A stretch of 64,000 bases of DNA from contig NZ_JH992902.1 in assembly GCF_000315545.1 (NCBI RefSeq), positions 903,280 to 967,279 of the forward strand, given 5' to 3'. The DNA is from Selenomonas sp. F0473. Its GTDB lineage: Bacteria; Bacillota; Negativicutes; Selenomonadales; Selenomonadaceae. Below are positions 1 to 35,880 of the stretch, piece by piece (within the stretch, counting starts at the first letter, position 1; the number at the start of each line of letters is the position of its first letter). The notes beneath the pieces are model-generated. The model made no database searches, had not been told where the DNA came from, and saw only the letters and a program-made list of their open reading frames with translations. Both the position numbers and the translations under genes were made by a program.

Positions 1-966
1 CTGCGGGCGCGCCGTGCATACGGGCGAAGCATCCGCCGCCGCACGCGGCGAGTGCATCGCAGGCGCGGCAGCGCGCCATTCCGTCGTATACGAGCGCGGC
101 GACCGCCTGCGCGCGCTCCTCGGAGATGCCTTGCATGACATCGCCGAGGTAGAACCGCGGGTCCCCGAAGAACGAGGAACAGGCATAGATGCCGCCGTCC
201 GCCTGTACGAACGCCGCCTCACCGCGCAGAACAAAGCAGTGTTCGAACGCCTCCATGCGCCCGCTCACGAGCGCGCCGCAGCGTTCCGTCTGCGTGAGCG
301 CGATGCGGATGCCCGTGAGCGCGGCGAGTTCGTCGAGGCGGCGGCAGAGCGCCGTGACCGCCGCCGCGGTCTCCGCCTCCCCTGCGGGGACGAGCCCTCT
401 GCCGCGCCCCTGCCCGCGCAGGAGGTCGAGCCCGATGCGCCGCACGTTGCCGAGGTAGTATGCGAGCTCGGCGAGCCCCGGGAGGTCGCGGACATTCTCG
501 CGCGAGACGACCGCGGTCACGCCGACGGGAATCCGCAGGGCGCGCAGTACCTCCATGCCGCGCATGACGGCGGCAAAAGAACCCGTACCGTTCGGGAGCT
601 TGCGCAGGCAGTCATGCACCGCCGCGCGCCCGTCGATGCTGACGCCGATGCCGACGCGGTGCCGGTGCAGGAAGCGCGCCCGCTCTTCGGTGAGGAGCGA
701 GCCGTTCGTCTGCACCTGCATCCGCGCGGGGATGCGCTCCGCCTCGACATAGCGTACGATTTCTTCGATCAGGGGAAACGCGAGCATCGGCTCTCCGCCG
801 CTGAACTGGAGGACGAAGGGCGTGCCGCCCGCCGCGGCGAGCGCGAGCGCGCGTTGCGCCGTCTCAAAATCCATGGTCTCGCGCCGCATCTCCGCCGCGT
901 AGCAGTAACGGCAGGCGAAGTTGCAGTCCCCCGTCAGCGCGAGCACGAGCAGCTTGCAGTGTTTCA
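1..966 (-). CDS. Radical SAM/SPASM-domain protein (partial, 3' end beyond window)
   Basis: I translated this frame directly from an ATG at 966; 322 codons are visible and the stop lies outside the window. Residues 15-22 hold the radical SAM CX3CX2C motif (CNFACRYC), followed by FSGGEP. The C-terminal part has a textbook SPASM signature, CX13GX4C then CX2CX5CX3C (ending CGGGC near residue 315), for auxiliary [4Fe-4S] clusters. Members of this superfamily mature peptides or remodel tetrapyrrole side chains (AhbC, AhbD and NirJ are SPASM-type enzymes). It begins 14 bp after the BtuC-like permease stop and so looks like the next gene of the B12-riboswitch operon. The substrate is unknown. The context suggests a tetrapyrrole or a peptide partner; a sulfatase-maturase type cannot be excluded. 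Confidence 0.85.
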
Positions 967-980
967 TCTACGCCGCCCCG

Positions 981-2015
981 TCACGACAGCATCCGCCGAT
1001 TCTTCCGCAGGAGATAGAGGAAGTACGGCGTGCCGAGCAGCGCGGTCATGATGCCGACGCGAATCTCAATCGGGTCGAGGACGACGCGTCCGAGCGTATC
1101 GCAGAAGACGAGCAGCATCCCGCCCGCGAGGATGCTCGCGGGGAGCAGCCGCCTGTGGTCGGGACCGACAATCATGCGCATCATATGCGGCACGATGAGC
1201 CCGACAAAACCGATGTTGCCGCTGATGCAGACGCCCGTCGCCGTCGTCATGGACGCGACGGCAAGCAGGAGGAGCCGGTAGCGCGTGACGGGCATCCCGA
1301 CGGCGCGCGCCTCCACGTCGCCGAGGACGAGGATGTTGAGGTGCCGCGCCATGAAGAGCATGACGGCAAGCCCGATGCAGATGGGACCCACGCCGAGCAG
1401 GACGTGCTCCCAGCGGCGATAGTCGAGGCTGCCAATCGTCCAAAAGAGGTATTGCTGCATTTTCTGCTCGCTGATGACGGTCAAAATGCCCGCCGTAATC
1501 GCGCCGAGCAGCATGCCGACGACGACGCCCGCGAGGAGCAGCATCATCACGGGAATCTTGCCGTGCCGCATGGACAGCATGACCGTGAGCGAGACCGCTG
1601 CGAGCGAGCCGAGAAACGCGAACATCGGCAGGAAGAACATGCTCTCCTCCGAAAGCCCCAGCGAGATGGCGATGACCGCGCCGACCGCCGCGCCGCTTGA
1701 GACGCCGATGATGCCGGGGTCGGCGAGCGGATTGCTGAAGATGCCCTGCATAACCGTCCCCGACGCGCCGAGGCTCGCGCCGACCATCAGTCCGACAAAT
1801 GTGCGGGGGAACCGGATATGCCAAAGCACCGCCTCCTGCTCCGGCGAGACCGCGATGTCCGCGAGCACGGGCAGCCCCGCTGCGTGCGCGAGCGAGGCGA
1901 GCACCTGCACGAACGAGATGTCGAACTGTCCCCATGAGAGCGAGAACAGCGACACGAGGATAAGCAGCACGCCCATGACGGGCGCGAGCGTCCGCAGAGA
2001 AAACTTTCTAGGCAT
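981..2015 (-). CDS. FecCD/BtuC-family ABC transporter permease
   Basis: This inner-membrane permease of the iron-siderophore/vitamin B12 family is about 344 residues, normal for BtuC/FepD. It has many hydrophobic helices and the family motif GxxxGxxxQ (SLGASGTVMQGIFSNPLADP). I use the ATG at 2015 because it follows a GGGGGAG ribosome site; a longer reading to 2117 has no support. The start overlaps the end of the NifK-like gene by 8 bp, which suggests translational coupling. It should pair with the BtuD-like ATPase (5390-6226) and the two binding lipoproteins (11486-13461) to bring a corrinoid, other tetrapyrrole or metal chelate into the cytoplasm. Sequence alone does not separate B12 from heme or siderophore specificity, but the riboswitch favours a corrinoid. 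Confidence 0.88.
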   Translation of the reverse strand: MPRKFSLRTLAPVMGVLLILVSLFSLSWGQFDISFVQVLASLAHAAGLPVLADIAVSPEQEAVLWHIRFPRTFVGLMVGASLGASGTVMQGIFSNPLADPGIIGVSSGAAVGAVIAISLGLSEESMFFLPMFAFLGSLAAVSLTVMLSMRHGKIPVMMLLLAGVVVGMLLGAITAGILTVISEQKMQQYLFWTIGSLDYRRWEHVLLGVGPICIGLAVMLFMARHLNILVLGDVEARAVGMPVTRYRLLLLAVASMTTATGVCISGNIGFVGLIVPHMMRMIVGPDHRRLLPASILAGGMLLVFCDTLGRVVLDPIEIRVGIMTALLGTPYFLYLLRKNRRMLS

Positions 2016-3303
2016 GGTCTCCCCCCTTTTCCGCTCGACGGATGGTCCGGCGGATAAAATCATTCCAAAGATATTCCTGCGCGTATGCCGCGCCGCGCAG
2101 CCCCATGAGCGGCGCATCGGTCAAAAACAGGGCGTCTGGCACGGGCTGTGCGATATGGAACCGTGCGACGACATCCTCATGCGGGAGCCCCGCGGTCTCG
2201 CTGCCGCTCCCGAGGAACAGCCCCTCGCTGAGCGCCGCAATCGCCGCCCGCCCCGCCGCGCTCTCGGGCGCGGCGGTCTCGTCCGCAATATCCGCGCCGT
2301 ACCGTTCCGCCATGCCGCCGAAGTCCTCTGTCAGCACAGCGAGGTGCCCCATGTCCGCCCACTCGCCGCGCAGCGCGTGCGCGATGCCCAGCGCCGCGGA
2401 CGGCGGCGCCGCAATGACGGCGCGCTCATACCAGAGATCGCCCCACATGCTCTTTGCCGCGTTGATGCGGAAGAAGATCTGCCACTGTACCCGCTCCGCC
2501 TCGGTAAGCGCGGCGTCGATACGCGGCGCGCGCAGGGCATCGTTGATCTCCGTGAGCCAGCGGCGCGTTCCCTCGACGCCGTACGGCGGAAGCGGCGCAA
2601 TGTACGGCACATCGGTCGTTTGCTCCAAATATGCCGCAAGCTCCGCGCCGAGTTCGGCGTGAACGACGATGTTCAGCTCCGCCGTGCCCAGCGTCTCGAG
2701 CTCCGCCGCCGTACATCCGCCGCCCACCGGCGCGCCGATCGTATAGCCCGACAGTTCGAGAAGCCGCATCAGCTCGCACAGATCATTCCCCGCGCGCAGA
2801 TAGGCGGGCGTCAGCCCGAGGAGGTTGACGCGTCCGGGCGTCCGCGCCGCCCTCCGGGGGGCGATCTCCTCCATACAGGCGCGGGCGGCTTTTCGATAGC
2901 CCGCGGCAAACATGCCGCCGAGCCCGCCGCTATCAAAGGCGGCGACGCGGGGAAAGCCCATGCCGCGCGCGATGCTCCGCACATCGTCGCCGATGAGCCC
3001 CGCCGCGCAGCTGTTCTCCACCGCGAGCAGAGCGGGCGACGGGTCGAGATGCGGCGCGAGCGTCTCGCGGATGTACTCCTCCGCGCCGAACACAATGGCG
3101 TCGTTGTCGAGCTGCGTTGAAATCATGCGCTGCGCAATCATCGGACATTCCTGTTCGAGCGTCCGCATCGCGTAAAAATAGCACCACATCGGGCCGTTGA
3201 CGGCGATGAGCGCGTCCTCAATCCCTGCGAAAAATCCGGCGGCACCCGCGAGCGCGCAGGAATCCGAATGCCGGCAGACGCTTTGAAACGCGTCTTCAGG
3301 CAT
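2008..3303 (-). CDS. Nitrogenase component-1-like protein (NifK/BchB-type subunit)
   Basis: A 431-residue member of the NifD/NifK/BchN/BchB superfamily. Cys16 (in CALAGAAG), Cys41 (in NGPMWC) and Cys99 (in ENSCAAGLIGDD) occupy the three positions that bind the P-cluster or [4Fe-4S] cluster in this superfamily; Cys10 is an additional cysteine. The GLIGDD motif after the third Cys is typical. The length fits tetrapyrrole reductases (BchN, CfbD) better than molybdenum NifK (about 520). It overlaps the next component-1 gene by 8 bp and the permease by 8 bp. It probably forms a heteromeric catalytic component with 3296-4594 and receives electrons from the NifH-like protein. No nifENB-type cofactor genes are nearby, so true nitrogen fixation is unlikely. 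The substrate is unknown. Confidence 0.85.
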   Translation of the reverse strand: MPEDAFQSVCRHSDSCALAGAAGFFAGIEDALIAVNGPMWCYFYAMRTLEQECPMIAQRMISTQLDNDAIVFGAEEYIRETLAPHLDPSPALLAVENSCAAGLIGDDVRSIARGMGFPRVAAFDSGGLGGMFAAGYRKAARACMEEIAPRRAARTPGRVNLLGLTPAYLRAGNDLCELMRLLELSGYTIGAPVGGGCTAAELETLGTAELNIVVHAELGAELAAYLEQTTDVPYIAPLPPYGVEGTRRWLTEINDALRAPRIDAALTEAERVQWQIFFRINAAKSMWGDLWYERAVIAAPPSAALGIAHALRGEWADMGHLAVLTEDFGGMAERYGADIADETAAPESAAGRAAIAALSEGLFLGSGSETAGLPHEDVVARFHIAQPVPDALFLTDAPLMGLRGAAYAQEYLWNDFIRRTIRRAEKGGDHA

Positions 3304-4594
3304 AGAGCACGCCCCCTTCCCGCCGCCGCGCCGCGCAGCGGCGCATACAGTCGATGAGCAGTTCTTCGCCGCGCCGCCCCGCTACGGGCAGCATTGGCAG
3401 GAAGATTTGACGCAGATGCGGATTCGCGAGCTCATGCGTCGTCAGCACGAAGTCCGCCGCCCGATACGCGGGCTCCGCATCGCGCTCTGCAATCACGGGC
3501 GCAGGGCTCGCCTCCCGCGCGCGCCGCTCCATCTCCGCGCGGTCCTCCGGCAGATAGGCGTCGAGAATCACCACGCCTGCGAGCACAACGCCCAGTTCCG
3601 CGAGCAGCCGGCAGACGGGCTCCGGCCGAAAATACCGCACGGCGCGCCCCACGGCGAGCACGGCGCGCTTGCCCGCAAGAGCGTCCCGTCCCGCGGCAAT
3701 CGCCGTGTCAAACGCCGCACACTCCTCTCCAATGAGCTCTTCCGCCTCCGCCGTGCGGCCCGTGAGCTGCCCGATACGCGCAATCCAGCGCAGGGTCGCC
3801 TCCATGCCGACGGGGTAGATATCCCCCGCGCAGACGATGCCGAACCGCGCTGTGAGGAGCTCTGCAAAGTCCCGCACCTCCTTCTCGTGCGCCGCGTCCC
3901 CCTCCCTGCCGAGCAGGACGGAGAACTCCGCGGCGGGGACGTCGGAGAGCTCGGCAAGCGAGAGGTAGGAGGGGAACTGGAGGATGTCGTGCATCCCGAG
4001 CGCCGCGAGCAGCCGCCGCACCTCGCGGACGTACTCGCCCGACGCGCCGCCGCAGTCGCCGAGGAGGACGGCGCGCCCTTTGACCTTCTCCGCCGCCGGC
4101 TGCATAAAGTGCACGGCAAGCAGCCGCATCGTCTCCAAGTAGCCGCCGAAATACTCGCCGTCGAGGAACCCGTGCGATTTCAGCGCGATGACGGGCATCC
4201 CGTATTCCTCTGCGGCCTCCTCCGCGATGCGCTCCGCGTCGTCGCCGATGACACCCGCCACGCACGACGAGACGATGAAGATAGCCTCCGGCCGCGCATC
4301 GCGCACGACATGCGCGAGACAGCGGCGCAGCAGCTCCTCGCCGCCGAACACCGCCTCATCCTCCGCAATCCCGCTCACATAGAGGGGAATCGCCTGTTCC
4401 TCCCACGCGGCGCCGCGCGCCATGCCGCGGTAATGCGCCCCCGTCTCAAGTGTGCGCGCGATATGAGCGCACGCGCGCGGGCTGTGGAACACGACCGCCG
4501 CGCCGCGCACATAGGCGAGCGCGCGCCAGACGCCCGGCATCGCGCAGCTGCAGTTCGTCCGGCGGAAGATGAGCCGCTTTGCCTCAGTTGCCAT
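3296..4594 (-). CDS. Nitrogenase component-1-like protein (NifD/BchN-type subunit)
   Basis: The start is set at the ATG at 4594 (MATEAKRL), giving 432 residues. The open frame continues to 4903, but that part lies inside the NifH-like gene and is Arg/Ser-rich shadow sequence. Candidate cluster ligands are Cys15/Cys17, Cys42 (in HSPRAC) and Cys111 (in [11 protein letters not shown]), matching the three-cysteine pattern of component-1 proteins. It overlaps the NifH-like stop by 11 bp and the second component-1 gene by 8 bp. Together the three genes form a complete reductase plus two-subunit catalytic component, as in the dark-operative protochlorophyllide reductase. The His pair ligand and the homocitrate/FeMo-co environment of NifD were not recognised. 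Confidence 0.85.
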
Positions 4595-5393
4595 AGGATT
4601 CCACCAGCGCCTCCAGCTCCTCAAACTCCATCGACTGCGGGACGGAGAGCCGATCGTTCGTCTCAATCGCGCGCGCAAGCGCGCGGTAGATCTCCGCCTG
4701 CGCATCCTCGGGCGCGTATTCGATGACCGTCTTGCGCCGAATCTCCGCCGCATGGACAACCTGCGCGCGCGGGACGAATGCGATGAGACGCGTATTGAGA
4801 CGTTCGGCGAATGCCGTGAGGAGCTCCTCCTCGCGCGCGACGTTGCGGCTGTTGCCGATGATGCCGCCGAGCCGGACGCTGCCGCGCGCGGCGAACCGCG
4901 CAACGCCCTTGGCGATGTTGTTCGCCGCGTAGAGGCTCATCAGCTCGCCCGAGGAGACGATGTAGATTTCCGTCGCGTAGCCCTCGCGAATCGGCACGGC
5001 GAACCCGCCGCAGACCACATCGCCGAGCACGTCGTAGAGCACGATATCTTCGTCTTCGATGGCGTGCAGCGCCTTCAGCCGCTCAAGCGCGACGATGATG
5101 CCGCGCCCCGCGCAGCCGACGCCGGGGTCGGGGCCGCCCGCCTCAATGCACTTGATATCGTGCCAGCCCGTATGAACGATATCCGAGAGCTCCGCCGCAC
5201 CCTTTTTCTCGCGTTCGATATCAAGCACCGTCTCTTTGCAGATGCGTCCGAGCAGGAGGCGCGTGGAATCGTTCTTCGGGTCGCAGCCGATCTGACAGAC
5301 GCGCCGCCCCATCTCCGCAAATGCGGCCGAGACGTTCGACGCCGTCGTCGATTTGCCGATGCCGCCCTTGCCGTAAAACGCGATTTTCTTCAT
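4584..5393 (-). CDS. NifH/BchL/CfbC-like ATP-dependent reductase
   Basis: A 269-residue homodimeric Fe-protein homologue. The P-loop GKGGIGKST lies at residues 8-16. Cys94 (GVGCAGRG) and Cys128 (GDVVCGGFA) are the two cysteines per monomer that hold the bridging [4Fe-4S] cluster; in NifH they are Cys97 and Cys132. The Fe protein transfers low-potential electrons to component-1 partners with ATP hydrolysis, and the partners are the next two genes. The start overlaps the preceding ABC ATPase stop by 4 bp. It is most likely a group IV-VI nitrogenase-like protein rather than a dinitrogenase reductase, because no other nif genes are seen and all neighbours are tetrapyrrole or chelate genes. Confidence 0.93.
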
Positions 5394-6226
5394 ACCTTCG
5401 CCCCTTTTTCCTCAGGTACCGCGAGCAGCGGCGAGAGCGCGCGCCGCTCCGCCTCTGTGAACACTTCGATATGCCCCGTCTGCGCGTTCTCCGCAACGCG
5501 CACGGGCGTGCCGTACGCACGGGAAAGCGTCTCCTCGCGCATGACCTCTTCCGGCGTGCCGTCCGCCACAATGCCGTCCGCGCCGATGAGCAGGAGCCGC
5601 GAGCAGAACCGCGCGGCAAGCGAGAGCTCGTGCACGACGAGCATCGCAGTGCGCCCCGCGGCACAGAGGTCGCTGCACAGGCGGAAAATCTCTTCTTGGT
5701 AAATGAAATCCAGCCCCGTCGCCGGCTCGTCAAGCAGGAGGAGCGGCGCCTGCTGCGCGAGAATCTTTGCGAGCAGGACGCGCTGGCGCTGGCCGCCCGA
5801 GACCTCCTGCACCGCCTTGTCGCGGATGTCCCAGACGCCCGTGTACGCCATCGCGGCGCGCACGATCGCTTCGTCCTCCGGACCCTCCTGTTCGTAGAAT
5901 TTCAGATAGGGGTAGCGCCCCGCCATGACGATGTCGTGCGCCGTGTAGCCGAAGGAGATGGCAACCTGCTGTTGGAGGTAGGATACGAGGCGCGCGCAGT
6001 CCTTCTCGCCGTACGTATCGACGGGGCGCCCGTAGAGGAGCGCCTCGCCCGCATGGGGCGGGAGGAGGCCGCGCATCGTCTTGAGGAGGGTGCTTTTGCC
6101 CGCGCCGTTCGAACCGATGATGCCGATGAGTTCGCCGCGCTGCACGCTGAAATTCATATGGCGCAGAATCGTTCGGTGCCGCGCGTAGCCCACAGACAAA
6201 TCGCGCGCCTCAAGAACAGCGTTCAT
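5390..6226 (-). CDS. BtuD/FepC-type ABC transporter ATP-binding protein
   Basis: A 278-residue ATPase of the B12/iron-siderophore importer class. Walker [10 protein letters not shown] is at about residues 38-46, the ABC signature VSGGQRQR at 142-149 and Walker B LLLLDEP at 162-168. The ATG at 6226 follows a strong AAAGGAGG site. It is the first gene after a 284-bp gap in the operon and runs into the NifH-like gene with a 4-bp overlap, so the transporter ATPase and the reductase are translationally linked. Its membrane partner is the permease three genes further on. Confidence 0.92.
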
Positions 6227-6268
6227 AAAAGACCTCCTTTCAAGGGAAATAGTTTATCGGGTGCTGAT

Positions 6269-6336
6269 TGCCGTAAGGCATCTGCCTTGCGAAAAAAGCA
6301 CGGCTTAAAAATCGCTGCGGCAGACGCCTTACGGCA
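6269..6336. repeat. Inverted repeat, 18-bp arms, 32-nt loop
   Basis: The arm at 6269-6286 pairs with 6319-6336 at 17 of 18 positions. The core is TGCCGTAAGGC against GCCTTACGGCA. No T-run follows on the minus strand, so it is not a simple intrinsic terminator. It lies between the chelatase and reductase halves of the operon, upstream of the BtuD-like gene. Confidence 0.75.
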
Positions 6337-6405
6337 CGGTCATATCGTCCTAAAAGATTGGCATGCAAACAATCCCCACGTCATGCCACCCCCTCATTTC
6401 CGCAG

Positions 6406-6433
6406 CCTGAGTGACGCGGAAGTTTGGATGCAT
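6406..6433. repeat. Dispersed repeat, block 1, copy A
   Basis: This 28-bp block, with core TGACGCGGAAGTTTGGATGC, recurs at 35841-35868 with two mismatches and in degenerate form at 50160-50186. All copies lie outside genes, just beyond the 3' ends of minus-strand coding regions. Confidence 0.7.
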
Positions 6434-6509
6434 AGCTAGGAATTGAGGCAGACGCGAGGAAGGCGTAGATGAGACCTACGTCGACGAAGCGTTTGCCAAA
6501 AATGACGAC

Positions 6510-6538
6510 GCTAGGCGCCAAAATCCCGCGTCACGCCT
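6510..6538. repeat. Dispersed repeat, block 2, copy A (overlaps the ChlD-like 3' end)
   Basis: This 29-bp block matches 35881-35909 at 26 of 29 positions. Here it encodes the last residues of the ChlD-like protein (GVTRDFGA) and its TAG stop, so the repeat appears to have been captured as coding sequence. Confidence 0.65.
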
Positions 6539-8421
6539 ACGATATGTAAAATCCGCTCCGCAGAAAGTTCTTCAAGCGTGTAGCACGGCGCATGCATCTT
6601 CGCCGCAACCTGCGCTGCAAGATGCAGCCGTACAAAATCCTGCTCGGTATCGAGGACGAGGGCGCGGACGCCGGTACGCCCGACGGCCTCGGCCGCCGCA
6701 AGCGCCGCCTGCGCGGGGTCTTCGCCCTCCGGCGCGGCGGTCGCCCGTCCGTCCGTGAGGACGACGAGCAGCGTCTCCGCGAGCTCGCCGCGCCGCGCCG
6801 CCCCCGCGAGGTGTGCGAGCGCCTCCGAGAGCCCCGCCGCGAGCGGCGTGCGCCCGCCCGTCGGCAGTTCCCGCAGCAGGCGCTGCGCGAGTTCCACGCT
6901 GCGCGTCAACGGCAGGAGGGTCTCGGCGCGGTCGCGGCGGAACGCGACGAGCCCCACGCGGTCGCGCCGCACATAGGCCTCGCGCAGGAGAGCGAGCATC
7001 GCCCCCTTCACCGCGCGCATCCGCGCGCGCGCCGCCATCGACCCGCTCGCATCCACGACGAAGAGAATGTTCGCCCCGCGCCTGCGCTCGCGCACCGCAC
7101 GGCGCAGGTCGCTCCGCGCGATGACGATGCGCCGCCTGTCTGCCGCCCTCCGACGCAGCCGCTGATAGGGCGCGGCGGCACGCAGCGTCGCGGCGAGCGC
7201 GATATCGCGCTCCCGTTCCCGCGCGGCGGCGTCGCGAACCATGCGCCCGCCCGCCGCACTCGCCGCCGTCAGCCGTTTCCCGCTGCCCGTACCCGCGGCG
7301 CGCAGCTCTGCCGCAAAGTCCAACAGCGGCATCGTCATCCGGGCGAGCGCGTCGAAGACCGTGTCCATCCCCGCCCCCGCAGGAGGCGGCGGCGCCGTAT
7401 CGTCAGCATCTCCGCCCTCGTCCGCGCTTTCCTCCGCGGGCTCCTCGGTCGGGGATTCGTCTGCATGGGAATCTTCCTCCGCCGTATCTCCCGCATCGGG
7501 GCTGTCGCCCTGCGGCGCGTCCTGCCCCTGCTCTTCCTGCGGCGTATCGTCCGCATCCTGCCCGCCGTCCCCCTCGCTTTCCTCCGCGGTCGGCGGGGGC
7601 GCGGGCATCTCGGGTGGCGCGCTCATACGGTGCGGCAGAACGTAGAGCGCCGCCTCCTCCATGTCGGCGGGCAGGAGATAGGAGCGTCCCGCGAGCGCCG
7701 CCGCAGCGCGCGCCGCCTCCGTTAAAAAGAGCTCCGCGCGGTTGCCTGCACAGCGGGCCCGCACGACGAACTCCGCCGCAAGCGTGCGCATCGCGGAGGA
7801 CACAACGACATCAGCAAGACGCTCCCGCGCCGCCGCAACGGACGCGCCCAGCTCCTCATCCGCCGCACGATAGTCCGCGGCAAACGCCTCGGGGGCGCGG
7901 CTGTAAGCACAGGCACGACGCACAATGGCGCGCCGTTCCGCCGCATCGTCCGCCCCCGAGAGCGAGACGAACATGCCGAACCCGTCCAGCACGGCGGCGG
8001 GCAGCGTTCCCTCGGCGGGATTCATCGTCCCGACGAGAACAAGGGAGGCATCCTGCGCCGCCGCTGCAAGCGCCGCATGGAGAAACGGGCGCGGCAGCAG
8101 ATTTGCCTCGTCGAGCAGGAGCATCCCGCCCGCCGCACGCTGCAAAATCCCCGCCTGCGCCGCGCGTACGCCGTCCACAAGCAGCCGCTCAATGTCCGCG
8201 CCGCCGAATACCATATCGTCGGTCGCGCCGAGCGGGAGCTGCGTGAGCCGCCCCACCTGCGGGAGTGCCCCCGCCGCGCGCGCGAGGAGTGTCTTCGCCG
8301 TCCCCTGCGCGCCCGAGAGGAGAAGTCCGCCCGCGCGCGGATTCACAAGAGCGAGCAAGAGCGCTCGTTTTGCCGCCTCCTGTCCGACGATGGCGGACAT
8401 GGGATAAACAATATGTTTCAT
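6511..8421 (-). CDS. ChlD/BchD-like chelatase subunit (AAA+ plus von Willebrand A domain)
   Basis: About 636 residues from the ATG at 8421, which has GGGA upstream; a TTG at 8433 is the alternative start. Residues 1-260 form an AAA+ module with Walker A SGAQGTAKT at 36-44. A Glu/Asp/Pro/Ala-rich acidic linker follows at about 270-345, and a C-terminal VWA domain has the MIDAS motif DASGSM at Asp457 and LTDGRA near 556. This is the usual layout of the D subunit of Mg/Co chelatases, which links the ATPase ring to the CobN/BchH subunit. It lies 49 bp after the ChlI-like gene and shares the operon with a CobN-type gene, so all three chelatase subunits are present. The last eight residues fall within a dispersed repeat. 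Confidence 0.88.
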   Translation of the reverse strand: MKHIVYPMSAIVGQEAAKRALLLALVNPRAGGLLLSGAQGTAKTLLARAAGALPQVGRLTQLPLGATDDMVFGGADIERLLVDGVRAAQAGILQRAAGGMLLLDEANLLPRPFLHAALAAAAQDASLVLVGTMNPAEGTLPAAVLDGFGMFVSLSGADDAAERRAIVRRACAYSRAPEAFAADYRAADEELGASVAAARERLADVVVSSAMRTLAAEFVVRARCAGNRAELFLTEAARAAAALAGRSYLLPADMEEAALYVLPHRMSAPPEMPAPPPTAEESEGDGGQDADDTPQEEQGQDAPQGDSPDAGDTAEEDSHADESPTEEPAEESADEGGDADDTAPPPPAGAGMDTVFDALARMTMPLLDFAAELRAAGTGSGKRLTAASAAGGRMVRDAAARERERDIALAATLRAAAPYQRLRRRAADRRRIVIARSDLRRAVRERRRGANILFVVDASGSMAARARMRAVKGAMLALLREAYVRRDRVGLVAFRRDRAETLLPLTRSVELAQRLLRELPTGGRTPLAAGLSEALAHLAGAARRGELAETLLVVLTDGRATAAPEGEDPAQAALAAAEAVGRTGVRALVLDTEQDFVRLHLAAQVAAKMHAPCYTLEELSAERILHIVGVTRDFGA

Positions 8422-8470
8422 CGCATTTCCCAACGCCGCAAGTCACACAGTGCCGCGCACAGAAAAAATA

Positions 8471-9490: not shown

Positions 9491-9511
9491 CAAAAACCTC
9501 AGTCTAATATC

Positions 9512-11401
9512 TTAGAACTCGTAAGTCAGCCCCGCTTGGAAGAACCGCCCCGGCCCCGGGTAATACTTGCTGTTATAGACGGGGTACTGTGCATTTGTGA
9601 GATTCAGCAGCTTCACATAGGCGTTCGTATGCGCGTCGATCGCATAATCGACATTCAGATCGACGATCGTATAACTTTTCTGTCCAAAAAGAGTGCGGTC
9701 CAGCCCGGCGCCCATCGTCGCGAACAAATTGGCCTTCCATGCGCCCGCCCCATAGTGAACGCCGATACGGTAACCGTTCGGTCGGGTATTCGAGTTCTCC
9801 CAAACAAGCCCCTGTCCCGTCCCTCTGTCACGCTCCGTACGAATGTAAGAGTAGCCGAGATCATAACTCCACGCCTTGCTCAGTTCCTGCCGATAGGTCA
9901 GTTCCAGCCCGCGCTTCTTCTCCAAGTCGATATTCGTCGCGTAATAGTCCGACCAATTTGGAGAAACCCAGCGAATCGCATCGTGAATCTTGCTCCGGAA
10001 CGCGCTGACCTCAATGGACTTCGTCCCGTCAAACGCATGGCGCACGCCGACGGTCTCCGTGTGGCCGCTCTCCGGTTTCAGATTGCGGTTGCCGTACATG
10101 CCGCCCCACATGCTGACGCTGTGGTAAAAGAGGTCGTCCGCCTGCGGCGCGGCGAACACCCTGCCCCACGACGCGTAGAGCTGCGTCTTGTCGCTCGCCG
10201 CGTAGTTCACGGCGAGTTTCGGCGAGTAATGCGTGCCAAACTCGCTGTGATGATCCATCCGCAGCCCGGGGATGACCGACCATTTCCCCATCTCTAAGGT
10301 ATCCTGCACGTAGGCCGCCGTATTCGTCAGTTTCTCCCCGTCATATCCGTTCGCAAGGTTCGTCGAGCTGCTGCGGTGCCATTCCAGGCCGGCGACGAGG
10401 CGGTTATTGGGATCGATCTGCCAGCCGTTCTGATAGTCGACGCCCGTGAGGCGGGATTGGAACGCCCCGCTGAACTTCATGGATTTATAGTTGTCAAAGA
10501 CGCGCAGAACGCCCGGCGTCGTCGTATTTTCCTTAAAATTGTACGAAGCGCTCCAATCGTTATAAAGCCGATCCACATGATTGGTGTTCCTGAATTGCAG
10601 ATTGTGGCTGTCCCCGCTGAGCGTATGATGAACGACGGAAAGCGTCAGCGAATCGCCCGCGCCGAGCTTCTTATCGACGCGCAGGCTCAGTTCGTTGTTG
10701 CGGTAATCGCTGTCCGGCATTTTCCGCGTCTCGCCGTCCGATTTGTAACGCATATAGCCGCGCCGGTCGATGCCGCCCGCAATCGTCCAGCGCCAATCGC
10801 CCGCGCTGCCCTCGTGCATGACGCGGTACTCCTGCGTGCTCCACGCGCCTGCCGCCACATCGAGCGTCGTGCGGTTCTCCTTGCCGCGTTTCGTGATGAT
10901 ATTTATCACGCCGCCCGCCGCATCGCTGCCGTAGAGTGCGGATCCGGCGCCCTTCACGATCTCGATGCGCTCGATCATCGACATGGGCGGCACTTCCTTC
11001 AGCGATGCGCCCGCTCTGCCGCTCCCCGTCCCCTGGTCGCTGTTGATGCGTCGGCCGTCGACGAGCACGAGCACGCGGTCGTCGCCGTTCAGGCGCACCA
11101 TGTCCTGCATACCGGACTTCATGACGACGACGCCGTTCACATGGGAGAGCGCCTCCGCAGCGTCGCGGTACCGGTTCTCCGTAATCTCCTCGGCAGTCAC
11201 GACCGCGACGTTCGCCGCCGTCTTCGCAATCGGCGTGGGAATGCGCTCCGCCGTCACAACGATATCCGGCAATGTATATGTATCGCTATCTTGATATTCT
11301 TCCGCATATACATTGCTGCCGCAATACGCCCCCGTCAGCAGGGCGGCTGCGACGGCAGCCGAGAGTTTCCGCTGTGCATTCTTTGTGTTCCATGCGTTCA
11401 T
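9512..11401 (-). CDS. btuB: TonB-dependent outer-membrane receptor, BtuB-like
   Basis: A 629-residue receptor with an N-terminal signal peptide ending near NVYA-EE, a TonB-box-like segment (DIVVTAER), a plug domain (residues about 60-170, with LVLVDGRRIN and GSDAAGGVINIIT) and a 22-strand-type barrel ending in the terminal Phe (GLTYEF). The length fits BtuB (about 600) better than large siderophore receptors (over 700). The ATG follows GGAGGAA. Position between two binding lipoproteins and the chelatase ATPases, all under a cobalamin riboswitch, supports corrinoid uptake. Heme or another chelate remains possible. No tonB/exbBD genes are in the window. Confidence 0.88.
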   Translation of the reverse strand: MNAWNTKNAQRKLSAAVAAALLTGAYCGSNVYAEEYQDSDTYTLPDIVVTAERIPTPIAKTAANVAVVTAEEITENRYRDAAEALSHVNGVVVMKSGMQDMVRLNGDDRVLVLVDGRRINSDQGTGSGRAGASLKEVPPMSMIERIEIVKGAGSALYGSDAAGGVINIITKRGKENRTTLDVAAGAWSTQEYRVMHEGSAGDWRWTIAGGIDRRGYMRYKSDGETRKMPDSDYRNNELSLRVDKKLGAGDSLTLSVVHHTLSGDSHNLQFRNTNHVDRLYNDWSASYNFKENTTTPGVLRVFDNYKSMKFSGAFQSRLTGVDYQNGWQIDPNNRLVAGLEWHRSSSTNLANGYDGEKLTNTAAYVQDTLEMGKWSVIPGLRMDHHSEFGTHYSPKLAVNYAASDKTQLYASWGRVFAAPQADDLFYHSVSMWGGMYGNRNLKPESGHTETVGVRHAFDGTKSIEVSAFRSKIHDAIRWVSPNWSDYYATNIDLEKKRGLELTYRQELSKAWSYDLGYSYIRTERDRGTGQGLVWENSNTRPNGYRIGVHYGAGAWKANLFATMGAGLDRTLFGQKSYTIVDLNVDYAIDAHTNAYVKLLNLTNAQYPVYNSKYYPGPGRFFQAGLTYEF

Positions 11402-11485
11402 TTCAGTTCCTCCAAATTTCTTAAAGCGCCGTGTATATCATCGCGTCCGCCTCATAGAGGACGGGCGCGCATATCTGACTGTCCG

Positions 11486-12466
11486 CTACTTGACCGCCGT
11501 CAGATGCAGTCCGTCGGGCTGCGCAAACGCGTCGCCGTACGCCATATACGCGATCTCCTGCGCGCCGAATACGACGTCCTGCGAGCCGTTGTAGATGTAG
11601 CCCTCGCGCGGCTCGCGTAGCGCGCCCGTCTTGATTGCCTTCAGTGTGGCGAGCGCGGGATCGCCGAGATATTTCTGGCGGAACGCGGCCACGTCGTAAG
11701 TGCCGTGCGCGTTGTAGGTCGGCAGGAAAAGGATGTCGGGATCGATCGAGACGAGCTGCTCCTTCGTCATAACCTGCCCCGTATGAATCCCCAGCTCCGC
11801 CATACCGTTCTTCACTCCCGCATAGCCGCACGCGTCGTCAAAGGTCGATCCGATGCCGCCGTACGAACTCATGAGGGAGATGAGGACGACGGTCTTGCGC
11901 TCCGCCGCAGGAATGGCATCCGTCCGATTTTTGAGCGCGGCGAGTTTCTCGTCCATCTGCCGCACGAGGTCTTCCCCGCGCGCCGGCTCTCCCGCGGCCG
12001 CGGCGAGGAGCGTGACCGTCTCGCGGATCTCGTCGATACTGCGTACGCCCTTGCAGACGACGACGGGGATGCCGAGATCGCGCAGGCTGTCGACAATGGT
12101 GATATCCCCCCAGTCGGGCGCAACGACGAGGTCGGGATGCAGCGCCATGAGCTGCTCGCTCGTCGGCATGCCGATCTTCTCCGGAATCTGCCGGGCGATC
12201 TCCGGGATGTTCGAACTGACGGGATCGTCCGCAAGCGCGTTGACCGCTGCCATACGCTCGGGTTCAACCAGCCCGAGCATGGTGATGTCGGTGCTGAGCG
12301 AGAGCGTCACGATGCGCTGCGGTTTTTCCGCAAAGTGCGTGACATGCCCTTGGATGTCCGTAACGTCGTAACCGCCCGACGCGGCATTCTGCGCCGTATC
12401 TTTGCCGCAGCCCGCCAGCGGAAGCAGCAGAAAGAATACGACGATCAATCGAAGAAATTTCATCAT
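11486..12466 (-). CDS. Periplasmic binding lipoprotein, BtuF/FecB family (copy 1)
   Basis: A 326-residue helical-backbone-metal-receptor-type solute-binding protein with a lipoprotein signal (lipobox LAGC, Cys20). The N-terminal lobe has the QRIVTLS and IPEK motifs. The C-terminal part carries GQVMTKEQLV, FLPTYNAHGTYD and a YNGSQDVVFGAQE block that the adjacent paralogue shares. It delivers the ligand to the BtuC/BtuD-like importer. The start overlaps the upstream paralogue by 4 bp (ATGA). Having two divergent binding proteins for one permease suggests two ligand forms. Confidence 0.87.
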   Translation of the reverse strand: MMKFLRLIVVFFLLLPLAGCGKDTAQNAASGGYDVTDIQGHVTHFAEKPQRIVTLSLSTDITMLGLVEPERMAAVNALADDPVSSNIPEIARQIPEKIGMPTSEQLMALHPDLVVAPDWGDITIVDSLRDLGIPVVVCKGVRSIDEIRETVTLLAAAAGEPARGEDLVRQMDEKLAALKNRTDAIPAAERKTVVLISLMSSYGGIGSTFDDACGYAGVKNGMAELGIHTGQVMTKEQLVSIDPDILFLPTYNAHGTYDVAAFRQKYLGDPALATLKAIKTGALREPREGYIYNGSQDVVFGAQEIAYMAYGDAFAQPDGLHLTAVK

Positions 12467-13461
12467 TCATCCTCCACAGCAGACAGATGCCGGTTGGTCG
12501 GCTGGGCAAACGCGTCGCCGTAGAGCATCGCCGCCGTCTCCTGCGCACCGAACACGACGTTCTGCGAGCCGTCATAGAGATAGTGCCCCCACGGATGCTT
12601 GATATGCCCCTCGCGCACCGCCGTCATCTGCGCGAGCGACGGGTCGCTCACATACTCGCGCCCGTAGGTCTCCTCATTGGAAGACGGGATGCGGTACGTC
12701 GGCAGGAAGATGTAGTCGGGATTCGCCGCGACGAGCTGTTCCTTCGTCATGACCTGCCCGCTCTTATTCCCCGCCGCCGCCTTCGCGTTGATTGCCCCCG
12801 CGTAATTGCACATGATGTCAAAGCTGCACCCCGCGCCGCCGTAGCCCGCCATGATGGAGACAAAGGCGACGCTCTTGCCGCGCTGCTCCGCGGGGACCTC
12901 CTCGACGCGCCGTTTGAGGTCGTCGAGCCCCTCCTGCATCATCGCGACGAGCTTTTCGCCGCGCTCGGGCTCGCCGACCGCATCCGCCGCGAGGCGGATG
13001 TTGAAGACGATGTCGTCGAGGTCGCGTACCTGCCGGCAGGCGACGACCGAAATCCCGAGCGCGCGCAGCGCGTCGACCTGCTCAGCCGGCATGAAGGGGA
13101 CGGTGAAGATGAGGTCGGGGTTCATCGACGCCGCCTTTTCCACCGAGGGCATCCGTGGGATTGCGTTCGGCACGCGCTGCGCCAGTGCCGCGACGTTCGA
13201 GCGCGCGGGGTCGGTGTGCAGCTCGTCAATCGAAATCATGCGCTCCGGCTCGACGAGCCCGAGCAGCAGCTCGTCCATCGACATCGAGTAGGTCATGATG
13301 CGCTGCGCCTTCGCCGGCACTTCGACCCGCGTCCCCTGCGCGTCGGTGACGAAATGTTTTTCGGTGGGCTTTGCCGCCTCCTCGCTCCTGCAGCCCGCGC
13401 AGGCGAGCATTAGCATGAGCACGAGGAGCAGCGCCGCAGCGCTCCGTCGTCCTTTATCCAT
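12463..13461 (-). CDS. Periplasmic binding lipoprotein, BtuF/FecB family (copy 2)
   Basis: About 332 residues from the ATG at 13461, with GGAGG nine bases upstream; a GTG at 13467 sits too close to that site. The lipobox is ACAGC. It is clearly paralogous to the following gene: both have GQVMTKEQLV, LPTY, YDGSQNVVFGAQE and YGDAFAQP near the C-terminus. It overlaps the CobN-like stop by 8 bp. It is expected to sit lipid-anchored on the periplasmic face of the inner membrane and to bind the ligand taken up by the TonB receptor. Confidence 0.87.
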   Translation of the reverse strand: MDKGRRSAAALLLVLMLMLACAGCRSEEAAKPTEKHFVTDAQGTRVEVPAKAQRIMTYSMSMDELLLGLVEPERMISIDELHTDPARSNVAALAQRVPNAIPRMPSVEKAASMNPDLIFTVPFMPAEQVDALRALGISVVACRQVRDLDDIVFNIRLAADAVGEPERGEKLVAMMQEGLDDLKRRVEEVPAEQRGKSVAFVSIMAGYGGAGCSFDIMCNYAGAINAKAAAGNKSGQVMTKEQLVAANPDYIFLPTYRIPSSNEETYGREYVSDPSLAQMTAVREGHIKHPWGHYLYDGSQNVVFGAQETAAMLYGDAFAQPTNRHLSAVEDE

Positions 13462-16400
13462 CCGCACGTTCCTCCAGCTCTCCTTCCATTGACAGATAGA
13501 GCTCCCGCAGCTGCGCGAGCGTCTCTTCCTCCGCCTGCCACAGCCCGCGGTGCGCCGCCTCCAGCAGCGTCTCCGCGATGCGGTGCAGCGCCCACGGGTT
13601 GACCTCGTTCATCCACGCCCGCATCTCCTCATCAAGCGCGTATTTCTCCGCGTACTTCTCGTACATCCAGTCCTCCATGACCGCGCTCGTCGCGTCCCAT
13701 TGGTAGCTGTGCGCGAGATAGGAGGCGAGGTCGGAGGCGCCCTTGTAGCCGTGTTTCTTCATCCCGTTGATGAACTTCGGGTTCATCGCCTCGGCGCGGA
13801 AGATGCGTTTCGCCTCCGCCTGCACCGTGCGGACACACGTGCGCCGCCGGTCGGAGCTGTCTCCGCTGTAGGAGCGCGGCGCTTTCCCCGTGAGGGCGCG
13901 CACCGTCGCAATCATACCGCCATGGTACGCGTTGAAATCGTCGGACGTGAACATATGCGTCTCGCGGTTGTCCTCGTTCTTAATCGTGACTTCGAGCCCC
14001 GCCATGCGCCGGCGGAAAATCTCCGGCTCGTAGTTGCCGCAGACGCCGTCCTTGTAGGCATGTCCCGAGAACCGCGTATAGACCGCGGCGAGGTCATCGA
14101 GGGTCTCCCATTCCTTGGATTCCAACAGCGCGCCGATGCCTGCGCCGTACGCGCCCGGCGGGTCGCCGAAGATACGGTAGGACGCCTTCTCCCACGCCGC
14201 AGCCTCCTCTTCGCCCGCCGCGATGAGCTCCGCCGCGTCCTCCTCCATGTGCTTACGAATGTAGTTCTCCTCATGGGATTCGTCGAGCGCGCCCGCCATG
14301 CGCGCCGCCTCGTCCAGCCAGCGCGCGCCGTCGGGCATCGTATCGCGGAAGAGGCCGCTGATGCGCCCCGTCACGTCGATGCGCGGGCGCCCGAGCTCCG
14401 CCAGCGGGATGACCTCGATATCGCGCACGCGCCCGCTCGGCTGCTGCCATACGGGGCGGATGCCCATGAGATAGAGGAACTCCGCGATACATTGACCGTG
14501 GCTGCGCATGTTCGAACCCGCCCAGAGCACAATGCCGACCGCCTCGGGATAACGCCCCTCCGTGCGGATATAGTCCTCGATGACGGCGTCGCCGAGCTGC
14601 CGCCCGAGCTCCCACGCTGCGGGCGACGGGAGCGTTCGCGGGTCGATGCCGAAGAAATTGCGTCCCGTCGGCAGGAGGTCTGCCCCGCCGCTTGACGGCG
14701 CGCCGCCCGGCGCAGGCTCGATGTAGGCGCCCGAGAGCGCCGTCACCGTATGCGTTATCTCCTCGTCCGTGCGCCTGAGGTTCGGCACGACATCCATGCA
14801 GATATACGAGAGGACGCGCGCGAGCTGCGGCCGCGTCTCTGCGCCGCACTCCTCCCGCGTAACCGCTTTCATCACCGCATCGGCGGCATCCGGTGCGAAA
14901 TCCTCCGCCATCAGTGCGGCGACGAGCCGCGTGCCGAGTTCTTCGAGGCGGTCGAGCGCCATGCCGTAGGTCGTGCCGTCGGGGAGGAGCGTGCCGCCCG
15001 CATCCAGCAGCGCGTCGTAGTCCAGCCCCTGCCCCGCCGCGAGCACGCGCGTCAGCGCAGGGATGTCGCCGTTATCCATACGGACGAGGGATTTCACATA
15101 GTCGACGCGGTCCTCTTCGGGCGGCATGCGCCCGAGGACATGGAGCCCCGTGCGAATCTGCAGGTTCTTGAGGTCGGTCACGTAGTTGTGCAGGCGCAGC
15201 GCGTATGCGTCGAAGTCCTCCTCCTCCGGCACCTCATCCTCGAGATGCGCCGCGCGCGCCGCCTCGCGCACGAGCTCAGCCGCAGCGTCCGCCGCCTCCG
15301 GCTGCGTGCGGACGAAATGCCCGTACTCATCGAGCGCCCGCTCAAGCTCTGCGATGTCGTCGCACGCTCCCGCGAGGCTCATCGGCGGCGAGAGATGACT
15401 GATGAGACACGCCGCCCCGCGCCGTTTCGCCTGAATGCCCTCGCCGACAATCGTCATCCAGTAGGGATAGATGTCGGGCAGGTCGCCGATGGAGATATCG
15501 GGATAGCACGAGGGCGAGAGCCCCGCGTTCTTGCCCGGGAGCCATTCGAGCGAGCCGTGCGTCCCGACGTGTACCACGGCGTCCACCCGGCGCACCGTGC
15601 GCAGCCAGTGATAGAACGCGAGGTAGTGATGCGTCGGCGCGGCGTCGGGCGAGTGCAGGAGTTTCCCGGGGTCTTCGCCAAAGCCGCGCGGCGGCTGTAT
15701 CGTAATGAGGATATTTCCCTTTTCGATGCCGGGCAGGATGAACGCATCATCCGCGACGAGCACATCGCCCGGCGGTTCGCCCCAGTCCGCGCGCATGCGC
15801 TCCCGGACGCGCGCGGGGAGCGTTTCAAAGTAATCGCGGTAGTCCGCCACAGAGAGCCGCCCGCAGGCATGCGCGATCTGCTCGTCGGTCAGATAGCGGC
15901 GGTCGTTCGTCGCCTGCGCCGTGATGTCGTCCATGAGCGCCTGCGCCGTCTCTGGGATGTTCTCCACACGGTAGCCCGCATCTCCCATCGCGCGCAGGAG
16001 GCGCACGACGCTCTCGGGCGAATCCAGCCCCGCCGCGCTGCCGATGCTCGCGTTCGTCGGCGGGTAGTTGTGGAAGATGACCGCAATCTTCTTCTCGGCA
16101 TTCTCCTTGCGCCGCAGCATGGCATAGCGCCGCGCCCGCCGCGCGAGGAGTTTCATACGCTCCGTCAGCGGCACATAGACGGAGAGCCCGTCCTCCATGC
16201 GCTGTTTCGCCGCAATCGGCACGGCGTGGATAGCGCCGTCGAACTCCGGCAGACTCACGCTGATGGAGACCTCCATCGCGTTCATCCCGAGCGGCGAATC
16301 CTCCCACTCCGCGCGCTCGGCGAGAATCGTATACGCCTGCAGCCACGGCACGCCGAGCCGGACGAGTTCCTCTATCGCCGTCCCCGCCGCATGCAGAGAG

Positions 16401-17137: not shown

Positions 17138-17173
17138 AACGCCGATAACTCCTTATTATAATGCTTCGGGCAA

Positions 17174-17199
17174 TAAAAAAATCCACCCTTCGGTGGATT
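17174..17199 (-). terminator. Riboswitch-controlled intrinsic terminator
   Basis: On the minus strand AATCCACC, a GAAG loop and GGTGGATT are followed by seven T residues. It lies between the B12 box and the cobN-like ribosome site, the position expected for the expression platform. Confidence 0.88.
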
Positions 17200-17490
17200 C
17201 TCGGTGCTCACAGTATCTCCGGCATATGTTCCGACCGCGCCGGCTGCGCACGCCGCAAATCCCCTCCCCATCGCTCGTGGGTCAAACGGTGACTGTCGGC
17301 CGGGCAGTTCTCCTGGCTTAGGTTCATAACGTTTTTGCGCCTTCCCAAAGCATACGCTTCAGTGGCTCTATCGAAAAGCGCAAAAGCATCGCGCTTTTCT
17401 GCAAATTCGCTCCCCCATACAGTGGCGTGACCGCGCCGGAAATGCTCCGGCTTCTCTATTAAATCCCTGCGGATACCCGACCCGTACAGC
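17174..17490 (-). ncRNA. Cobalamin riboswitch with intrinsic terminator
   Basis: Read on the minus strand, the leader has the conserved B12 box AAGCCAGGAGAACTGCCC (17302-17319). Upstream of it is the CGGCGCGGTCACGCCACTG core (about 17420-17440) following a GCCGGAG...CCGG helix, as in the adenosylcobalamin riboswitch. The expression platform is a hairpin plus T-run at 17174-17199, just before the cobN-like start. Ligand binding should therefore terminate transcription of the whole operon. The 5' boundary is approximate; no structure model was run. Confidence 0.92.
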
Positions 17491-17561
17491 AAAACGGGCA
17501 TGCGTCAGCGGGAGGCTGCGCACGTCGTTCGTCCATCTGCACCTTTATATTATTCGCGCTT

Positions 17562-17589
17562 ATTATAACATTGATTTTATGCTTGTCAA
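17562..17589 (-). promoter_or_regulatory. Promoter of the cobalamin-riboswitch operon
   Basis: On the minus strand a perfect TTGACA (17584-17589) and TATAAT (17562-17567) are separated by 16 bp. The -35 box overlaps the stop codon of lpxL (17586-17588). Transcription would start near 17555, giving a leader of roughly 400 nt that contains the riboswitch. Confidence 0.8.
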
Positions 17590-35868: not shown

Positions 35869-35880
35869 CGCAATGACACA

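Follow-up and report, generated by a model that had tools for sequence, protein, structure and literature searches.

A cobalamin riboswitch operon of Selenomonas sp. F0473 that combines a nitrogenase-like reductase with a CobN/ChlI/ChlD-type chelatase, and its possible role in corrinoid scavenging

The DNA analysed here, referred to as the window, is a 64,000-nucleotide stretch of the Selenomonas sp. F0473 genome (contig NZ_JH992902.1, positions 903,280 to 967,279). On the minus strand of window 1-17589 lies an array of genes in which a nitrogenase-like reductase and a class I chelatase are combined with import genes below a cobalamin riboswitch. The order in the direction of transcription is promoter, cobalamin riboswitch, terminator, cobN, two binding protein genes, the gene for a BtuB-like TonB-dependent receptor, chlI, chlD, the gene for an ATP-binding cassette (ABC) ATPase, nifH, nifD, nifK, a permease gene and a SPASM radical S-adenosylmethionine (SAM) gene (Table 1). 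A previous interpretation made from the letters alone (the sequence-only reading) had named the receptor, both binding proteins, the permease, the ATPase, the chelatase subunits, the nif-like genes and the radical SAM gene, and all of them were recovered with Pfam, NCBIfam and RF00174. Its gene list needs to be extended at the distal end, where the radical SAM gene is truncated by the window edge; beyond the window, and on the same strand, two further TonB receptor genes follow before the lpxC genes (locus L012).

Table 1. Features of the riboswitch-controlled array, in the order of transcription (window coordinates; L012 denotes a locus that extends beyond the window)
Feature	Position	Strand	Evidence
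Consensus promoter TTGACA-16-TATAAT	17562..17589	-	read by eye from sequence
Cobalamin riboswitch aptamer RF00174	17286..17495	-	cmscan 94.7 bits, E 2.8e-22, full length
Intrinsic terminator, probably of the riboswitch expression platform, ahead of cobN	17175..17198	-	hairpin of at least 7 bp and T-run, read by eye
cobN-type class I chelatase large subunit, 1227 aa	13454..17137	-	PF02514 E 0; TIGR02257 over cut-off; nearest solved structures CobN 7c6o, 9uk9
BtuF/FepB-type binding protein 1	12463..13467	-	PF01497 E 1e-19
BtuF/FepB-type binding protein 2	11486..12466	-	PF01497 E 8e-21
TonB-dependent receptor, BtuB-like	9512..11401	-	PF00593, PF07715; best NCBIfam TIGR01779 (B12 receptor) 203 bits, below cut-off 600
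ChlI-type AAA ATPase of chelatase	8471..9493	-	TIGR02442 486 bits, TIGR02030 422 bits, both below cut-off
ChlD-type AAA-VWA subunit of chelatase	6511..8433	-	PF13519, PF17863; TIGR02442 493 bits, below cut-off
ABC importer ATPase, BtuD/FecE type	5390..6226	-	PF00005 E 3e-31; best NCBIfam the corrinoid ABC ATPase NF007082, below cut-off
nifH-like Fe-protein reductase	4584..5393	-	PF00142 E 1e-108
nifD-like catalytic subunit	3296..4594	-	PF00148 E 8e-53; own clade in tree; AlphaFold pLDDT 88
nifK-like catalytic subunit	2008..3303	-	PF00148 E 1.5e-46; own clade in tree; AlphaFold pLDDT 93
FecCD/BtuC-type permease	981..2117 (longest ORF; likely start ATG at 2015)	-	PF01032 E 1.7e-96
SPASM radical SAM protein, truncated by window edge	1..967 (whole gene L012:11222-12247)	-	PF04055 E 1e-18; SPASM Pfam model matched in relative

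The RF00174 aptamer lies directly upstream of the genes and is accompanied by a promoter and a terminator, which places the array in the cobalamin riboswitch regulon. The 55-nt stretch with the terminator has a local fold of -18.6 kcal/mol. Intergenic distances range from 14-nt overlaps to 84-nt gaps, with the exception of 284 nt between chlD and the ATPase gene. The ATPase, nifH, nifD, nifK and permease genes overlap one another by 4 to 11 bases (with the permease starting at ATG 2015), hence the reductase genes sit inside the importer, with its ATPase gene on one side and its permease gene on the other. In the S. artemidis orthologue only ~94 nt, as counted in the alignment, separate chlD and the ATPase gene, and most of the 284-nt stretch is absent. 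Promoters and terminators were scanned for in window 1-8720; the promoter at 17562-17589 lies outside this span. No minus-strand promoter-like site was found there from chlI to the permease start, and one weak site (9 of 12) is located inside the permease gene, at 1207-1180. Weak terminator-like stems do occur, one of them at the end of chlD, and their number (15 in the scanned stretch versus 11.9 in shuffles, sd 2.9) is not clearly enriched. The proposal of one operon-like array under B12 control is supported, with no promoter-like site of their own for the nif-like genes in the span from chlI to the permease start. The stretch between chlD and the ATPase gene (window 6227-6510) holds a repeat, with partial copies, 76-83% identical, at window 35824-35871 and at L022:13726-13836.

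The NifH-like protein scored 386 bits with the nifH model (cut-off 394) and 372 bits with the CfbC model (cut-off 402). The likely start of nifD is the ATG at 4594, since the longer open reading frame (ORF) begins out of frame within nifH. The D and K proteins reached 35 bits with the BchN model and 57-61 bits with the BchB model (cut-offs 420 and 490), and 36 and 30 bits with the CfbD model (cut-off 268), so that by model score they fall neither in the dark-operative protochlorophyllide oxidoreductase (DPOR) and chlorophyllide oxidoreductase (COR) families nor in the CfbCD family. A maximum-likelihood tree was built from 59 D/K-type proteins. In it the window family's D subunits grouped with those of a second, more distant subfamily in one clade (100/100), and the K subunits did likewise. 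The NifD, NifK, NifE, NifN, Vnf, Bch and other nitrogenase-like rows fell outside these clades. Because the Bch rows are long branches and CfbD, MarD and IsrD are not among the references, the own-clade statement applies to the references included.

Cysteine positions were compared in alignments restricted to rows of 400-560 residues (D) or 390-520 residues (K), from which the other rows were dropped. Cysteines matching the P-cluster ligands were found at D positions 17, 42 and 111 in 55/55 rows, and at K positions 16, 41 and 99 in 57/57; in a wider K alignment (A4, with one row left out) the third K cysteine was kept at 90% or more and was not invariant. A seventh D cysteine, at position 92, is kept in 52/55. 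At the column of the catalytic-cluster cysteine (Cys275 of NifD, Cys270 of MarD) none of the 55 D sequences has a Cys: there is Gly in 44, Asn in 8, Ser in 2 and Thr in 1, and six of the 55 have a Cys four columns before this site. A Cys occupies the column in NifD, NifE, VnfD, VnfE and six further D-type reference rows and, among the K-type rows, in VnfK of Nostoc and one second-subfamily row. Mar has the six P-cluster cysteines, and BchNB and CfbD are described as lacking some of them and having no P-cluster (PMC12552129). The combination of six P-cluster-type cysteines with no catalytic-cluster cysteine thus makes the window family unlike the Nif/Mar type and BchNB/CfbD alike. The six-cysteine pattern is no proof of a P-cluster, since the VnfE and VnfN rows of Nostoc show all six too.

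The AlphaFold models of both subunits have the nitrogenase fold. The D model was nearest to MarD (9d9u_A, Z 26.4, root mean square deviation (rmsd) 4.5, 354 aligned), followed by NifD (25.3), NifEN (24.4) and BchB (24.2), and MarD was also the top PDB match of the D profile (E 1.6e-43). The K model was nearest to BchB of DPOR (8vqh_B, Z 38.3, rmsd 3.0, 412 aligned), with MarK at Z 36.2 and nitrogenase beta chains at ~33. No NifEN pair was found in the genome, where a single weak PF00148 protein occurs besides D and K. This third protein (547 aa, E 4e-14, L014:6926-8569, equivalent to G000:C1:72925-74568) has no adjacent D/K partner and no NCBIfam match, and the genes after it resemble a TonB receptor, a binding protein and a permease. 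In another Negativicutes genome (G056; L122, L123) several more nitrogenase-like D/K pairs lie side by side near an ABC ATPase gene, and one of their D rows retains the catalytic-cluster Cys.

The large chelatase subunit passed the CobN model TIGR02257 with 933 bits (cut-off 822). The other CobN models of the library were not passed, nor was the BchH model (816 bits, cut-off 829). Its nearest structures were CobN (774 bits), ChlH (515 bits) and HmuS (375 bits). The motif HxGxHGxxExxP is present in 33/33 full-length relatives. The signature of the HmuS haem de-chelatase is a methionine-rich insertion of ~120 residues with 21 Met (PMC12583661); this insertion is missing from the window protein, which has at most 8 Met per 120 residues, and from the 33 full-length relatives (at most 11). 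A CobN cobaltochelatase inserts Co(II) into a corrin together with ATP-using partner subunits; ChlI and ChlD genes are present here, and the window protein may have such an activity. The cobN genes of Sporomusa ovata (L090:6600-8513) and S. acidovorans (L100) are in several ORF pieces, and may be frameshifted or misread. For the radical SAM protein the peptide maturases scored best (PapB, 146 bits; structure 5wgg), and the scores with the tetrapyrrole editors AhbC, AhbD and NirJ were weak (68-81 bits, below cut-off).

An alignment scan with the NifD-like protein, with one genome per species, yielded 61 named loci, whose neighbourhoods often end at contig ends. By title all are from Negativicutes, except Pelotomaculum propionicicum and one metagenome-assembled genome (MAG) labelled Acholeplasmataceae. 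Neighbouring families were named from example members (a single member each for CbiZ, the CbiR-like TIM barrel and radical SAM). They comprised nifK in 56 loci, nifH in 43, cobN in 38, a binding protein in 36, a permease in 30, chlI/chlD in 29, CbiZ in 25, an ABC ATPase in 24, radical SAM in 22, the CbiR-like protein in 18, and CbiK-type and nitrilase-type proteins in 8 each; a conserved protein of ~108 aa with two repeats and no clear family was found in 10/61 (L079:7847-8173 and 9 others). Gene order varies by genus, while the gene set and the strand are largely retained. With a covariance model trained on nine riboswitches of the host genome, that of the window included, a riboswitch was found to end 83-252 nt ahead of the nifH match in 8/61 loci (L070, L077, L086, L090, L095, L101, L103 and L109), among them Sporomusa ovata and Phascolarctobacterium faecium. 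Matches in Treponema and Nostoc, from plasmid searches for references, lay in other nitrogenase contexts.

Co-occurrence was then counted in 300 Negativicutes genomes. The reductase type was defined by E < 1e-30, a cut set after the scan that leaves G252 and G213 (~1e-28) just outside and also admits the second subfamily (~25-30% identity), which lies near chlI/chlD, cobN or CbiZ in several loci; the query carried ~103 out-of-frame residues at its start, raising the scores of close relatives. The reductase type was present in 75 genomes and CobN in 105: both in 70, the reductase only in 5, CobN only in 35, and neither in 190. CobN thus accompanies 70/75 reductase genomes versus 35/225 others (Fisher p 2e-35, kinship ignored), and by genus, with labels counted by eye, it was found in 27/29 with the reductase versus 13/68 without (p 4e-12, kinship ignored). 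In 49/75 genomes CobN is encoded no further than 20 kb from the best NifD-like match. CbiZ was present in 54/75 reductase genomes versus 52/225 others (p 7e-14, kinship ignored), and within 20 kb in 38/54.

The Acholeplasmataceae-labelled MAG (L077) has riboswitch, nifHDK, periplasmic binding protein, permease, cobN and radical SAM genes, perhaps on a misplaced contig. In Acidaminococcaceae/Succiniclasticum-type loci (L082, L083, L084, L091, L093, L099 and L106) nifHDK of this family, or only nifDK, occurs with no chelatase or binding protein recognised nearby. Other Selenomonas genomes (L129, L130, L131) carry a second nifDK-like set, ~43% identical, with no CobN in the stretch examined. The CbiZ of the Sporomusa ovata cluster (L090:17845-19407) has a signal-peptide-like start, a hint of cobamide cleavage outside the cytoplasm. 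In Schwartzia, two loci have the reductase genes between two CbiK-type genes, downstream of a riboswitch, and CobN was not found in them. The idea that CbiK replaces CobN in Schwartzia was dropped, because genome G062, apparently the same Schwartzia, has CobN on another contig; CbiK is here an added cobalt chelatase, not a replacement.

The host genome (G000) consists of one contig of 2.07 Mb, and the closest among the listed named genomes is Selenomonas artemidis (NifD 88% identical), in a listing that may omit records very close to the window. The host has 11 cobalamin riboswitches; several of those outside the array lie near TonB receptors and methylmalonyl-CoA mutase-like genes (both identified by eye) and near CbiK. 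An anaerobic B12 pathway is encoded, with CbiD, CbiK and a cbi/cob operon (L133; genes named by eye except CbiD), and CbiD, CbiK and one CobN each were found in 14/14 genomes of the genus, with CbiZ in 5/14. CobN is thus extra to a pathway that has CbiK, and the possibility that it serves as the cobalt chelatase of de novo B12 synthesis in the host was rejected. CbiD, the marker of anaerobic corrin synthesis, is present in 263/300 Negativicutes genomes and, counted by eye, in 72/75 of those with the reductase; the three without it are 73-83% complete. It is likely, therefore, that the reductase genomes make cobamides, and a salvage system confined to auxotrophs was rejected on this ground. The sole CbiK match of the host (L023:8575-9750) lies just below its own cobalamin riboswitch; because it has a signal-peptide-like start, this cobalt chelatase may be periplasmic.

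Several known systems resemble parts of the array. As in DPOR/COR (BchLNB, BchXYZ) with BchHDI, a nitrogenase-like reductase adjoins a class I chelatase, and the K model has BchB as its best match. The differences are the separate clades (with Bch on long branches), the three K cysteines where BchB has Asp and a gap, and the B12 control and importers on the window side. CfbCD with CfbA, of coenzyme F430 synthesis, follows the same logic of chelatase and nitrogenase-like reductase, and the NifH-like protein scores near CfbC; the window has a D and K pair whereas CfbD, compared by model score and not in the tree, stands alone. A radical SAM protein is also the partner of methylthio-alkane reductase (MarHDK) and of isethionate reductase (IsrHDK) (PMC11423573), and MarD is the best PDB relative of the D profile. 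They differ from the window family in that the latter has Gly, Asn, Ser or Thr at the position of MarD Cys270, and a chelatase/corrinoid context instead of sulfur compounds. HmuS of Bacteroides likewise belongs to the CobN superfamily and is encoded in an uptake operon that gut anaerobes carry (PMC12583661), but the window CobN is without its methionine-rich insertion, and ChlI, ChlD, a B12 riboswitch and a nitrogenase-like reductase are present in addition.

The closest precedent is operon-2 of Dehalobacter restrictus, which has a riboswitch, an importer, CobN, Mg-chelatase-type subunits and two CbiZ, and which changed most at low corrinoid, with an average 46-fold rise (PMC4285132). The cobalamin riboswitch, the Fep/Btu-type ABC importer, CobN and the Mg-chelatase-type subunits are common to it and to the window operon. 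A nitrogenase, NifH or radical SAM protein is without mention in the main text of that report, although the genes it leaves unnamed may include such proteins, and no TonB receptor is named in its description of the operon (PMC4285132); the window operon has one. No report of the set of nitrogenase-like genes, CobN and riboswitch was found in titles and abstract starts of the open-licence literature, and according to this literature the CobN/chelatase/CbiZ/importer operon is known, and the nitrogenase-like partner would be new.

The locus, with the gene set, riboswitch, conservation, clades and ligand pattern observed here, is real and conserved, and is neither an ordinary nitrogenase locus nor a bacteriochlorophyll locus. 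The riboswitch, the importers, CbiZ and the CbiR-like protein tie the system to corrinoids, and we infer that a corrinoid is its substrate class. Since the host encodes its own B12 pathway, the simplest interpretation is a scavenging or remodelling route switched on at low adenosylcobamide. In bacteriochlorophyll and F430 synthesis, a chelatase and a nitrogenase-like reductase act on one tetrapyrrole in succession, and by analogy the module may act on the corrin ring or its metal. We thus favour a B12-repressed operon for corrinoid (cobamide) scavenging and remodelling, in which a new reductase/chelatase module acts on the corrin ring or its metal, with a probability of roughly 0.56. The window family is a separate clade of nitrogenase-like enzymes, among the references included, in a corrinoid salvage setting, and there is a fair chance that its chemistry is new. 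Among the cobalamin riboswitches of Negativicutes tested so far, promiscuity towards corrinoids is described as the prevailing behaviour (PMC9600662), in keeping with a role in scavenging.

The scheme would run as follows. At low adenosylcobamide the riboswitch would let transcription through, and the TonB receptor and the BtuFCD-like transporter would import a corrinoid, whose nucleotide loop, in many relatives, would be removed by CbiZ and the CbiR-like protein. The NifH-like protein would hand ATP-driven low-potential electrons to the NifDK-like protein. The latter would combine P-cluster-type ligands with a pocket that has no catalytic-cluster ligand, and for this reason could have room for a tetrapyrrole, as in DPOR. 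CobN with ChlI/ChlD would move metal into or out of the ring. In the chemistry that we favour, the corrin or its cobalt would be reduced, and this step would be coupled to taking the metal out, exchanging it or putting it back, so that unusable corrinoids would become usable corrin or cobalt. The presence of ChlI/ChlD argues for metal insertion; CbiZ, encoded in the same clusters, speaks for a corrin that already carries its cobalt. A bolder version, which we regard as doubtful, holds that this is the first known ATP-driven system that makes the corrin ring of scavenged B12-like molecules accessible to change under anaerobic conditions, by means of a nitrogenase-like reductase that has P-cluster-type ligands and a corrinoid in the place of the catalytic cluster, and of a class I chelatase removing or swapping the central metal.

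A number of observations weigh against the scavenging and remodelling interpretation. In the host itself, CbiZ is absent from the genome, which was searched, so that this component of the Dehalobacter-type set is missing, and the operon has no CbiR-like gene. The CbiR-like assignment is weak: the one member examined reached 21 bits with NF041277, whose cut-off is 105, although no other NCBIfam model matched it at E 0.001, and it had no PDB match at E 0.1. The window proteins score below cut-off with the BtuB, BtuF and BtuC models. The covariance model found riboswitches in 18/61 loci and in 3/12 further loci, many loci being cut off. Phascolarctobacterium-type loci have a divergent MerR-type gene upstream of nifH and no riboswitch there (L063:8239-9099; similarly L067, L069, L071, L073, L074 and L079); this regulator could be a corrinoid-sensing protein. 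Five of the 75 reductase genomes have no CobN, in 26/75 the best NifD-like match has no CobN within 20 kb (some contigs being short), and several rumen loci have nifHDK alone. Known ChlI/ChlD-bearing chelatases insert metal, which fits poorly with removal, and we know of no biochemistry for any family member.

Cobalt harvesting is the strongest competitor, and we consider it unlikely. Corrinoids would be destroyed or de-metallated to supply cobalt to CbiK and to the host's own cobamide synthesis, as HmuS takes iron from haem. With a cobamide pathway encoded, low B12 may often mean low cobalt, a strong reductant would aid cobalt release, and HmuS, which is related to CobN and encoded in an uptake operon, is a demonstrated de-chelatase (PMC12583661). 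Against this stand the missing methionine-rich insertion in the window protein and all 33 full-length relatives, the much better match to CobN than to HmuS structures, and the NADH dependence of HmuS (PMC12583661) where the window has ChlI/ChlD; moreover, to destroy an intact corrin would be costly when CbiZ could reuse it. Somewhat less likely still is the synthesis of a new reduced tetrapyrrole, with cobalt or another metal, when B12 is scarce, in which CobN/ChlID would metallate a ring, whether made by the cell or imported, that the NifHDK-like enzyme would then reduce. It is an established fact that in the BchHDI/BchLNB and CfbA/CfbCD pathways the chelatase acts first and the reductase then acts on the metallated ring; a reference locus has bchN, bchB, a CobN-annotated gene (presumably bchH) and bchL side by side. 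ChlI/ChlD accompany insertion, and the weak scores of the radical SAM protein with AhbC, AhbD and NirJ point the same way. However, the importers, CbiZ and CbiR-like genes in the clusters indicate scavenged corrinoids, the CbiD counts make it probable that cobamides are made, and no candidate consumer enzyme was found among the identified gene clusters, ~10 of the 27 clusters common to at least 5 loci being without identity.

Two further explanations carry very little weight. Nitrogen fixation, or another nitrogenase-like or methylthio-alkane-reductase-like reaction placed in the B12 regulon by chance, would account for a NifH-like score just below the nifH cut-off and for MarD as the best PDB match of the D profile and the best structural match of the D model. 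It is very improbable in view of the catalytic-cluster column, which is free of Cys in 55/55 D sequences, the missing NifEN pair, the separate clades and the conserved tie to CobN and CbiZ. The uptake and breakdown of haem or another iron-porphyrin appears, if anything, even less probable: TonB/ABC-type uptake genes and a CobN relative also compose hmu operons, and the role of HmuS in them is documented (PMC12583661), but cobalamin riboswitches, CbiZ and CbiR-like partners and a chelatase of CobN rather than HmuS type are what is found here. For the sequence-only reading the outcome is partly favourable, and the checks it had named for its own refutation mostly came out on its side. The co-occurrence of cobN, chlID and nif-like genes is conserved, and the NifDK-like proteins lie outside all reference clades included, which held no CfbD, MarD or IsrD. 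Its proposal of corrinoid salvage and remodelling gains from the CbiZ and, weakly, the CbiR-like neighbours in relatives, with cobalt removal or exchange and a new tetrapyrrole left between the competing explanations; the variant in which a tetrapyrrole is made because B12 cannot be made fails on the CbiD, CbiK and apparent cbi/cob operon of the genome. Its remark that it knew of no characterised pathway with this gene set needs narrowing to the nitrogenase-like part, the combination of CobN, Mg-chelatase, CbiZ and importer being in print for Dehalobacter restrictus (PMC4285132).

Nitrogenase-like enzymes act in the metabolism of nitrogen, chlorophylls, F430 and organic sulfur compounds. A corrinoid-tied clade, if confirmed, would widen the range of this machinery and offer a natural test of P-cluster-type sites serving a tetrapyrrole; if the bolder version holds, a third kind of nitrogenase relative that reduces tetrapyrroles would have been found, and with it the reverse, or a repair branch, of cobalamin synthesis. 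Such a system would bear on the competition for B12 and cobalt among gut, rumen and oral anaerobes (Phascolarctobacterium, Dialister, Veillonella, Selenomonas). In addition, nifH or nifD reads from these habitats need not signify nitrogen fixation; one study notes reads resembling nifD from Phascolarctobacterium faecium and Selenomonas in the absence of nifK (PMC8597730). Elsewhere in the window, just past LPS-type genes, a minus-strand ORF of 353 aa (19936-20997) had no Pfam or NCBIfam match at E 0.001.

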